Shown here in pieces: positions 702 to 17,825 of a stretch of 22,285 bases of DNA. The stretch lies in the NCBI GenBank assembly GCA_014730235.1, contig WJIO01000147.1, positions 1 to 22,285 on the forward strand, in the 5' to 3' direction. A program made the translations under genes and the position numbers. This DNA comes from Candidatus Poribacteria bacterium (GTDB lineage: Bacteria > Poribacteria > DTPJ01 > WJIO01). The notes beneath the pieces are model-generated. The model searched no databases, was not told the origin of the DNA, and saw only the letters and a list, made by a program, of their open reading frames with translations. Each line of letters opens with the position of its first letter. Within the stretch, counting starts at the first letter, position 1.

Positions 702-723
702 AAAAAAGCCGCTTTCGCGGCTT
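702..723 (-). terminator. Intrinsic terminator of the small RNA
   Basis: On the minus strand a 7-bp stem AAGCCGC/GCGGCTT closes a GAAA tetraloop (716-713). The last two stem T's and four more make a run of six T's (707-702). There is no comparable T-run on the plus strand, so termination is directional. Confidence 0.75.
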
Positions 724-806
724 GGCAAAATTTTAACTATGACACCATCTTGGAACCGTTGAAACAAGCATTAATATTATTAAAATCGGAGGTGTATAGT
801 TATGTA
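702..806 (-). ncRNA. Predicted small RNA, about 105 nt, family unknown
   Basis: Transcription is predicted from about 806 to 702 on the minus strand. A near-consensus sigma70 promoter lies just upstream (-35 TTGACG, 18-bp spacer, -10 TATAAT). Near the 5' end, positions 802-791 pair with 746-734, giving a 12-bp stem with one bulged base. The RNA ends in a tetraloop hairpin (AAGCCGC-GAAA-GCGGCTT) followed by a T-run, a textbook intrinsic terminator. A CACCTCC segment (794-788), complementary to Shine-Dalgarno sequences, lies across the base of the loop. No open reading frame of note is present. I do not recognise an RNA family. Promoter, stem and terminator in register make a gene likely; expression is inferred. 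Confidence 0.6.
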
Positions 807-995
807 TTTAACATTATAGCAGAAAATGCCAGTTTCCGTCAAGGTTTAACTGGTTTGTATATATATCGCTGTTGATATTTGCCATAATCTACAACCTTGC
901 CAGCTTTAATTTGGGGCAATTGTTAAACAGGGATTAAAAGAACCAAAGCTTGTTAGTGATCATTAGAGTATTTGGTTCTCTTCACCTCCGATTTT
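782..995. repeat. 13-bp perfect inverted repeat, 188 bp apart
   Basis: AAAATCGGAGGTG at 782-794 is the exact reverse complement of 983-995. The left arm is inside the predicted small RNA, where it reads CACCTCCGATTTT. The right arm, read on the minus strand, presents a strong Shine-Dalgarno-like GGAGGTG. Confidence 0.75.
813..842 (-). promoter_or_regulatory. Sigma70-type promoter of the small RNA
   Basis: Minus strand: -35 TTGACG at 842-837 and -10 TATAAT at 818-813, with an 18-bp spacer. The predicted start is about 806. The -10 is a perfect consensus match and the -35 matches five of six positions. Confidence 0.65.
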
Positions 996-3149: not shown

Positions 3150-3962
3150 TTATTTTGTCTTTATTTCGCCCCATATGGTGCTGAGTTTATTAGCGGCTTC
3201 TACAGCAGCAACGCTCTGAGTTGTTTTGATGGAGATATTATCAACTGCCCACCACCAGTCGTTTGTGGCGTCGATCATTGCCCAGGTAACAACGGCTGAG
3301 CTTGCGCCGGCTGGATTGGGAATATCTATTTCGATGGTTTCATTGACCTGGGTGTTATCTGCCAGGGTTTCTTCCACACCGTTCAATGGCTCTTTGTAGA
3401 TGGTATTGGTTCCTGATGATTCCATTCTAATCAATACGATCTCATCACCACCGTCAAAGGAAACAGTCAATTCAACGGTCTGGGTATCTTCTGGACGCCA
3501 ACTTGAATCAAAGGTAAGAACCATTGAGTCAGGAGCAACACCGGTGATGTCCATAACCGGCGTTGAAAGCCATGAGTTGAATGTACCCTGGTCGCCAGGA
3601 GAATTCAGGTCATCCCATTCGTCAGGGTCAGCTATAGCGATAGTTCCCACAGCTTTTCCGTCGCCAGAAGTAAATTGGCTTCTGTTCTGATCACCGGCGG
3701 CCTGTGTCCACCATTCGCCATTGGCAAATGCCCAACCATTCCATTCTGGCATACCTTCGGGAAGATCATCAACTATTGTCCAACCGGCAGGCGGCACATC
3801 TGTCCATACGTTGGCTCCTGCTAAGTCTTCACCAACATTAGCACCCAGGGTTAAACCTTCAAAGTCCTCTTCAAAGAGAACTAAATCAACACCAAAAGCG
3901 GCACTGGCAATAACAAAAAGAGTCAGAGCGAAAACGCTCAAGAGAGTATTTTTAACAAACAT
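3150..3962 (-). CDS. Secreted protein with MAM/cleaved-adhesin-like fold and WG-K tail (paralogue B)
   Basis: This is a 270-residue exported protein. The ATG at 3962 has AGGAG 8 nt upstream. Residues 1-24 are a signal peptide ending S-A-A-F-G. Blocks shared with the convergent paralogue at 2026-2859 include L-F-E-E-D-F-E (29-35), E-W-W-T-Q (83-87), D-Q-N-R-S-Q-F-T (91-98), G-T-I-A-I-A-D-P-D-E-W-D-D (106-118), F-D-S-S-W-R-P-E-D (151-159) and N-D-W-W-W-A-V-D-N-I-S (234-244). The Trp- and Asp-rich make-up and V-D-N-I end suggest a beta-sandwich binding domain. The mature protein has no cysteine, unlike its paralogue. The tail K259-L-S-T-I-W-G-E-I-K is shared in form and might be an anchoring or sorting signal (inference). 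It has its own promoter (4061-4090) and terminator. Confidence 0.82.
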   Translation of the reverse strand: MFVKNTLLSVFALTLFVIASAAFGVDLVLFEEDFEGLTLGANVGEDLAGANVWTDVPPAGWTIVDDLPEGMPEWNGWAFANGEWWTQAAGDQNRSQFTSGDGKAVGTIAIADPDEWDDLNSPGDQGTFNSWLSTPVMDITGVAPDSMVLTFDSSWRPEDTQTVELTVSFDGGDEIVLIRMESSGTNTIYKEPLNGVEETLADNTQVNETIEIDIPNPAGASSAVVTWAMIDATNDWWWAVDNISIKTTQSVAAVEAANKLSTIWGEIKTK

Positions 3963-4129: not shown

Positions 4130-5101
4130 TTAATAATGCCACTGGTCAGTTTTATCTTCATAACCTTCAGATACATCAATGGGCCACCAGAGTTCTTCTT
4201 CCTCTTCCCATTCCTTTAAAATGCGCCTATTCCTGGCTTTTCGGCGCAGATAAGCTATAACAGCTATTAAAATAACCAGTGTCCAGAATATAACCCAGCT
4301 ACTCAATATGGATATCCATTTATATCGTTTTTTGATGCTGTTGAGCCATGTATGCTCCAGCCAATCAACGCTGATGCCCATAGATATATTCATCGCTCTG
4401 TTGAAGCTGTAACCACTAGCCATTAGCCTTATACACTCTCTCAAGGCCGGATGTCCATATCTTTCAACGATGAAATTTATAACACTGCTACTTTGGGCAT
4501 AAGCTAATCTAGCTTTAGACTCTCCTCTTGGAAATGTATAGGATATTTCTTTAAGGGGTATAATTGAATCACTCAGCGTACCCATAAGAATCGTCCAATA
4601 TTCACCATAAGACCATTCATCAGCCCCATACATTGCAATACCTTCATTAAACCAAGTTGGCACTTTTTCCAGATTATCACCCATATATAGACCAAATATT
4701 ACATGGGTTATTTCGTGTTTTAAAAGATGTGTGAGATTTATCCTTCGATTTTCCAGAGAAGATGGGTCTTTTATGGCAATCCGAGCATGTAAAGGGTAGG
4801 CATAACCTGCAGCCCAGTCTTGAATTGGCGCTCTGGCAGTCATATGAAAATTTTTTCGGGATTCGAAGAACCATATAGCAATCTTTCGCGGGGTAGAATA
4901 TCCCAGGTTTTCCGTCACTTTCGGGTAGAAATCTTCAGCAATTTTCTGAATTTCCAGAGCTTTCTTCCGGCTTTCAGAATACATAACTACAAAGTGTTCG
5001 CTTTCTACCGATGACCATTCTTTGGCATGAATATGACAGGGAATGAAAATGAGTATGATGAAAATCAGTATCGGTAAATTTTTTCTTAATATATTAACCA
5101 T
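4130..5101 (-). CDS. Membrane-anchored gluzincin metallopeptidase (peptidase MA-like)
   Basis: This is a 323-residue predicted zinc peptidase facing the periplasm. A signal peptide spans about residues 1-26. The zinc motif is H129-E130-I-T-H133, and W150-F-N-E153-G supplies the third ligand E153, the gluzincin arrangement of the peptidase MA / M1-like group. The domain runs to about 255. A membrane segment at about 263-285 is followed by a basic stretch and an acidic, Trp-containing cytoplasmic tail (297-323). The anchoring tail means it probably acts on envelope proteins near the membrane; the substrate is unknown. The ribosome binding site before the ATG is weak. No other start fits, because the signal peptide begins here. 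An extended -10 promoter lies about 24 bp upstream. Confidence 0.8.
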   Translation of the reverse strand: MVNILRKNLPILIFIILIFIPCHIHAKEWSSVESEHFVVMYSESRKKALEIQKIAEDFYPKVTENLGYSTPRKIAIWFFESRKNFHMTARAPIQDWAAGYAYPLHARIAIKDPSSLENRRINLTHLLKHEITHVIFGLYMGDNLEKVPTWFNEGIAMYGADEWSYGEYWTILMGTLSDSIIPLKEISYTFPRGESKARLAYAQSSSVINFIVERYGHPALRECIRLMASGYSFNRAMNISMGISVDWLEHTWLNSIKKRYKWISILSSWVIFWTLVILIAVIAYLRRKARNRRILKEWEEEEELWWPIDVSEGYEDKTDQWHY

Positions 5102-16265: not shown

Positions 16266-17825
16266 TCATCTTGGTTTCATAAACACGCAAGGCAAAATCA
16301 TTTCTTCCAGTGAGATGCCGCCGTGTTGGAATCCACCTCGGAATTGTCTTTTGTATTCATGGAATTGGTTGGGATAAACGAAATAATAATCCTCTTTTGC
16401 CAGAATATAATTTTTACCTATATTTCCCCCTGGTAATCTGTAATCTTTTGGTGTTGTTATATGCACAGCTTCGTCAGGATCACACCCCAGATTATTACCC
16501 ACCTTAAATCTAAGACTTGTAGAGGTGTCACGATTGCCAAATGCTTTGGATGCACGATTACTCAATATTGATCCATGATCCGATGTCAATACCACAACCG
16601 TATTCTTTTTGCGGGAAATAATCTTGAGTATTTCAAATAAAGCAGAATGGGTGAACCAGGATTTGGTTAGAGACCTGAAAGCTGATTCATCCGGAGATAT
16701 TTGTTGAAGTATATCTATCTGGGATCTCTTATGAGTTAGAATGTCAATAAAATTAACCACAACAGCAGCAAGGCTTATGCGATTAGCAGAAGACGCGTGT
16801 CTTATATATTCTTCCCCTCCCCTTGTATCAAAAATTTTAAAATATCTGGGAGGTGGGCTTAAATTCAAACCCATCTGCTGAAGCTTAATTTCAAGCATTT
16901 TCTTTTCATATTTGTTTGTGCTGGTCTCATCATCTGGAACTTCTTTCCAGTATTTGGGATATTTTTCCGCAATTTCCTTGGGAAACAGACCGCTAAATAA
17001 GGCATTTCTTGAATAAAGAGTAGCGCTGGGTAAAATTGAATAATAATAATTTCTTGTTACCTGAAAATATGGTAAAAGAAGGGGTTCGATAGTTAGCCAC
17101 TGGTCTAATCTTAAACAATCCACTACTATAAAGTATACCTGTAGACCTTGATTAAGTAAAGGAACAATATGTTTACTTATAACGTCAACAGATAAATCGG
17201 GAGAATTTTTCCCGTTTAACCAATCCAGATAGTTTTGTTCTACATAGTTTGAAAATAAGGCATTACATTCTTTTTTTTGTTCTATATGTGTTTCCTCAAG
17301 CCCTGTTTTCCCAATATGGTCAAACTCAATATCCCATTCTGACAATCTTAGATAAAGAGAAATCCATTCTTCCCAGTTTGGACCGATCTCTTTTAGCATC
17401 CTTATTTCGTTGAATTCTTTTGTATAATTTCGCGGTACTTTTTTTTCTATTATCTTATCCTGATCCAGTACCCGTTTAAGTATAGGAAGTATTCGACCTG
17501 GACTGAGAGGTTTAACCAGAAAATCATCAATGCGATTTCCTATAGCCTCGTCCATTAATTCCTCTTCATCGCTTTTTGTAACCATTATCACAGGTAAATT
17601 TGGTTCTAAATCCCTTATAAGGGAAAGTGTATTCATTCCATCTCTACCGGGCATAATTTGATCCAGTAAGACGGCATCATACTGCTGTTCCTTTATCAGA
17701 GATAGACCGTCATCTCCGTTGGATACAGGTGTTATATCATAACCTTTATTCTTCAGAAAGAATATATGCGGTTTAAGAAATTCTATTTCATCATCTATCC
17801 ACAGTATCCTCCTGCTTTCATTCAT
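16266..17825 (-). CDS. PorX-like response regulator with PglZ phosphatase-type effector domain
   Basis: A 519-residue two-component regulator without a DNA-binding domain. The receiver (about 5-120) has D11-D12, phospho-acceptor D55, T83 and K105. A helical linker (about 125-215) leads to a PglZ / alkaline-phosphatase-superfamily domain with a full set of metal and active-site positions: D236 (V-V-D-C-L-R), T269 (P-S-A-T-L-Y-S-R), D361 and H365 (F-I-D-I-L-T-H), D416-H417 (S-D-H-G) and H501 (Q-H-G-G-I-S-L-E-E). This is the architecture of PorX, which in Bacteroidetes controls type IX secretion and hydrolyses nucleotide compounds. Here it follows a histidine kinase by 40 bp and precedes mreB by 42 bp, so it is probably that kinase's partner. 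No other type IX genes are in view. Confidence 0.88.
   Translation of the reverse strand: MNESRRILWIDDEIEFLKPHIFFLKNKGYDITPVSNGDDGLSLIKEQQYDAVLLDQIMPGRDGMNTLSLIRDLEPNLPVIMVTKSDEEELMDEAIGNRIDDFLVKPLSPGRILPILKRVLDQDKIIEKKVPRNYTKEFNEIRMLKEIGPNWEEWISLYLRLSEWDIEFDHIGKTGLEETHIEQKKECNALFSNYVEQNYLDWLNGKNSPDLSVDVISKHIVPLLNQGLQVYFIVVDCLRLDQWLTIEPLLLPYFQVTRNYYYSILPSATLYSRNALFSGLFPKEIAEKYPKYWKEVPDDETSTNKYEKKMLEIKLQQMGLNLSPPPRYFKIFDTRGGEEYIRHASSANRISLAAVVVNFIDILTHKRSQIDILQQISPDESAFRSLTKSWFTHSALFEILKIISRKKNTVVVLTSDHGSILSNRASKAFGNRDTSTSLRFKVGNNLGCDPDEAVHITTPKDYRLPGGNIGKNYILAKEDYYFVYPNQFHEYKRQFRGGFQHGGISLEEMILPCVFMKPR

Follow-up and report, generated by a model that had tools for sequence, protein, structure and literature searches.

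The window analysed here covers the full length of contig WJIO01000147.1 (22,285 nucleotides), from a Candidatus Poribacteria bacterium whose metagenome-assembled genome comprises 5.53 Mb in 451 contigs. Near the start of the window lies a gene-free interval, flanked on one side by a minus-strand gene, read from the sequence as lipoprotein-like, that runs from ~134 and is truncated by the contig end, and on the other by a plus-strand gene at 1194-1778 that belongs to no known family. The product of the latter has 194 aa, with cysteine pairs (CIYC...CGKPEC) and an N-terminal half that is acidic; searches of GTDB and of 57 Poribacteria genomes found no relative of it and gave no route to related loci. 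A 20-bp near-perfect palindrome (AAACACCAAAAAGCGGATGATAATTATCATCCGCTTTTTGGTGTTT, 1797-1844) lies 3' of this gene, which ends at 1778, and is likely its terminator. Within the gene-free interval, positions 470-547 are occupied by a perfect inverted repeat of 29 nt with a 20-nt spacer (TTGTCATTCCTGCGAAAGCGGGAATCCAG), a REP/MITE-like palindrome with relatives in contigs L105, L104 and L068 of the same genome. Further into the window, two similar secreted-looking proteins of ~270 aa are encoded in opposite orientation at 2026-2859 (no Pfam family) and 3150-3962, and the protein at 16266-17825 reads, from its sequence, as a response regulator with an alkaline-phosphatase-like C-terminal half, resembling PorX-type regulators. 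The peptidase at 4130-5101 has its nearest named relative (55% identity) in 'Candidatus Poribacteria bacterium SpSt-970', and its use as an anchor led to a contig from the same phylum that does not carry the RNA locus described below.

The first-pass annotation had placed a promoter, a stem with one bulge and a GAAA-loop terminator in register in this gene-free DNA, and all of these parts are present at the minus-strand positions given for them, at a locus free of overlap with any ORF of at least 60 aa. The promoter (813-842) is of the sigma-70 type, with TTGACG at 842-837, an 18-nt spacer and TATAAT at 818-813; it matches the consensus at 11 of 12 positions, has the TG of an extended -10 box, and ranks first among 15 promoter-like matches in positions 1-2100. 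With the start placed 7 nt past the -10 box and the end at the T-run, the predicted RNA spans 806 to 702 and is ~105 nt long. Near its 5' end, a 12-bp stem is predicted between arms at 791-802 and 734-746, with 802-796/740-734 and 795-791/746-742 as its two paired segments and C741 as the single bulge; past a second bulge the stem gains two more pairs. The motif CACCTCC (794-788) forms the inner end of the 5' arm and the next three bases. Judged by unpaired probabilities, the body of the RNA is most accessible in an A/U-rich loop of ~40 nt (750-788). The intrinsic terminator (702-723) consists of the hairpin AAGCCGC-GAAA-GCGGCTT at 723-706, with a 7-bp stem, and a run of six T residues at 707-702. 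In fold predictions, the 107-nt transcript reaches -24.9 kcal/mol (z -3.1 against shuffles); the terminator accounts for about half of this energy, and the body on its own is only modestly better than shuffles (z -1.6).

The frequency of such signals was assessed in the window and in 100 further contigs of its genome, amounting together to 918 kb (about a sixth of the genome) with ~105 kb of intergenic DNA. The rules were fixed and genes were taken as ORFs of at least 90 aa, though the spacing rule was picked after the finding had been seen. Intergenic promoters matching at least 11 of 12 positions numbered 46, versus 5.7 in dinucleotide shuffles (8-fold), and intergenic terminators 24 versus 1.85 (13-fold), ratios from which ~88-92% of single promoter or terminator calls are real by the same measure. 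A promoter with at least 10 of 12 matches followed within 50-250 nt by a terminator was observed twice, with 0.05 expected; both pairs persisted when at least 11 of 12 was demanded, and none arose in 40 shuffles. The excess also withstood looser terminator rules. When the interval 136-1193 was itself shuffled, a pair with the same spacing appeared in 0.4% of cases at 10 of 12 or better and in none of 500 at 11 of 12 or better. Near-consensus sigma-70 promoters and intrinsic terminators are thus demonstrably in use in this genome, and in the sixth of it that was counted the locus at 842-702 ranks among the two best free-standing units. Outside the window, other intergenic promoter-terminator units of the same genome, at L131:4170-4475, L117:14606-14992 and L094:1320-1584, are candidates for small RNAs or short mRNAs. 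Because promoters, terminators and pairs of the two all exceed their counts in shuffled sequence, a discrete transcription unit of ~105 nt at 842-702 is likely, and the small-RNA transcription unit originally suggested for this site gains support from the pair counts. It has its own promoter and its own terminator in intergenic DNA, as is expected of an orphan small RNA (sRNA).

No family had been recognised at the outset, and a covariance-model search of Rfam 15 agrees, as it returned nothing at the gathering score; the sole overlap was with Trp_leader, at 16.9 bits of the 41 needed (E 4.1). A single-sequence covariance model and plain DNA searches of 84 Poribacteria genomes, including one other of the same order, matched only the window itself, apart from one short DNA match at chance level. 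With no relative among these genomes, the unit is, by this comparison, lineage-specific or young. The locus was not found in a plasmid search, and a phage search recovered only the terminator hairpin, a near-identical form of which ends a gene in a Cronobacter phage, a few nt past the stop codon. Pfam scans of the region, read in all six frames, revealed no protein family, and the ATG-led frame within the transcript has 12 codons and no ribosome-binding site. Several possible coding remnants were considered and set aside. A match to DUF3309 (E 0.067) fell under the cut-off of that family. Another Poribacteria genome has an ABC-2 permease gene that matches the region over 37 nt at 86% identity (E 5e-4; MLVSTVPRWC versus ILVSPVPRWC); this match was judged to be due to chance, given that 84 genomes were searched, since it ends after ten residues, the remaining permease is absent and the permeases of the host genome itself are only ~25% identical. 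A LamG-like piece weakly matched by the plus strand (E 3e-4, with 718 queries) was dismissed on the same grounds.

The proposal that the CACCTCC segment pairs with ribosome-binding sites fared less well. In the predicted fold this segment is mostly paired, with unpaired probabilities of ~0 for CACC and of 0.46, 0.17 and 0.58 for the final three bases. Across 567 translation starts, a sample from roughly one-sixth of the genome, predicted duplexes had a mean energy of -17.7 kcal/mol versus -16.0 for shuffled RNAs, energies alone being a weak test, and this excess disappeared when CACCTCC was masked. On gene interiors (-19.2 versus -17.6) the CACCTCC-dependent excess was as large as on starts, hence there is no preference for starts. 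No outlying target was present among the 567 starts, the best of which was no better than shuffled RNAs reach, and the A/U-rich loop likewise had no outlying partner.

The host genome does encode an Hfq-like protein, scoring 30.1 bits against the Pfam cut-off of 27. Its gene (L148:1483-1764, 93 aa) is situated between those for a two-component sensor and a TPR-like protein. Given the presence of this protein, an Hfq-type route is possible; the predicted RNA ends in a terminator with a U-tail (T6, 707-702), and the two together are the combination expected for an Hfq-dependent sRNA.

The explanation that we favour, at close to an even chance, is that the locus encodes an orphan, lineage-specific, trans-acting regulatory sRNA expressed from a genuine intergenic unit. 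What the sequence contributes to this reading is a set of signals that lie in register and are rare by chance, the lack of a known family and the Hfq-like gene; from there we infer transcription, action in trans and any target. RNA polymerase would start at ~806 on the minus strand and halt at the terminator at 702, releasing a noncoding RNA of ~105 nt with a stem-loop at its 5' end and a terminator hairpin bearing a U-tail. The A/U-rich loop would then base-pair with a target in trans, and the U-tail could serve as a dock for Hfq. Such an RNA resembles the orphan intergenic trans-acting sRNAs that scans for a promoter plus a terminator, such as sRNAscanner (PMC2916834), bring to light, in that it has a free-standing sigma-70 promoter, a length of ~100 nt, a 5' stem-loop, a single-stranded A/U-rich middle and a U-tailed intrinsic terminator; unlike them, the candidate, known here from its sequence, has neither conservation nor a supported target. 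For sRNAs predicted by a similar method and seen by sequencing, Northern bands were obtained in only 6 of 16 cases (PMC2916834). It is plausible, and indeed probable, that the candidate is an ordinary kind of orphan sRNA, with a mechanism that is unproven and for which the ribosome-binding-site proposal is not supported.

The strongest of the alternatives, though still unlikely, is that the transcript has no function, either as a short spurious product of young intergenic DNA or because a real promoter or terminator has met a look-alike of the other by chance. The locus lacks any conservation, no target signal emerged from the 567 starts, the fold of the RNA body is ordinary, and under looser terminator rules pairs with promoters of at least 11 of 12 matches occur five times in the 918 kb, all of which would fit a spurious transcript. 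However, those five pairs stand against an expectation of 0.2, and the joint architecture far exceeds chance at the genome's own composition.

It is doubtful that the promoter at 842 instead drives the minus-strand lipoprotein-like gene, with the hairpin at 723-706 acting as a conditional terminator in a cis leader or attenuator. The order of a promoter, then a stem and a terminator is that of known attenuators and leaders, the gene starting at ~134 is the next one downstream on this strand, and the stretch between them holds no minus-strand promoter of greater strength. Unlike in those systems, that gene is ~570 nt further downstream; the implied leader would be ~670 nt long and would contain the repeat element at 470-547. 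Moreover, there is no strong competing antiterminator, the terminator stem has a pairing probability of ~1, and no leader family was found in Rfam. Neither antiterminator pairing nor an adjacent regulated gene was identified.

The 5' half of the RNA also falls within a larger, imperfect inverted repeat, which extends outside the coordinates of the first-pass annotation. On the plus strand, its left arm (GGAACCGTTGAAA ... AAAATCGGAGGTG) occupies 752-799 and its right arm (CACCTCCGATTTT TCACGATTCC) 978-1007. The 13-mer AAAATCGGAGGTG has exact matches in the 5.5 Mb genome only at these two arms, and the blocks GGAACCGTTGAAA and TTTCACGATTCC lengthen the repeat; the arms comprise ~12 further pairs in addition to the 13 exact ones. 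This repeat could represent either a partner site for regulation or the remains of an element. That the RNA unit is incidental to a ~255-bp element (752-1007), whether a mobile element that has decayed or exists in a single copy or a structured RNA of greater length, is slightly less credible than a leader. The arms themselves suggest it, as does the fold of the region at ~700-1010, with z-scores of -4.0 for one strand and -4.7 for the other. Yet the intergenic DNA of this host folds well generally (median z -1.8) owing to dispersed palindromes, the repeat has no second copy in the genome, no flanking target-site duplication is seen in the sequence, and no minus-strand promoter lies upstream of 1010. 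The right arm can pair with the 5' half of the RNA, and this duplex, at -32.6 kcal/mol, is stronger than any of 1000 shuffles (best -27.0). A two-state device might be envisaged, in which the 5' half pairs with 978-1007 on transcripts crossing the region (~25 bp, with a GGAGGTG ribosome-binding-like site inside) and a single lineage-specific locus provides both the regulator and its target, but we consider this very improbable.

Least credible of all is a functional plus strand, in which the stem would hide a strong ribosome-binding site (GGAGGTG, 788-794; ATG, 802-804) in a 5' leader and the minus-strand RNA would be its antisense: the 7-nt distance between GGAGGTG and ATG, the cover of the site by the stem and a weak plus-strand promoter at 664-691 would suit this, but the frame from 802 has five codons, the stem region on the plus strand is no better than shuffles (z -0.35) and promoters with 9 of 12 matches are frequent by chance. 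A short terminated RNA antisense to a strong ribosome-binding site also recalls the cis-antisense RNAs of type I toxin-antitoxin systems, from which this locus differs in that its five-codon opposite-strand frame encodes no toxin-like peptide, and no small hydrophobic toxin ORF was found on that strand.

If transcribed, the orphan sRNA candidate at 842-702 would give Poribacteria an sRNA with support from sequence; no described sRNA from this phylum was found in the papers searched. Its mechanism would be ordinary. The more useful by-product is that, because the host genome demonstrably carries near-consensus promoters and intrinsic terminators, it allows orphan transcription units to be predicted at an error that can be measured.
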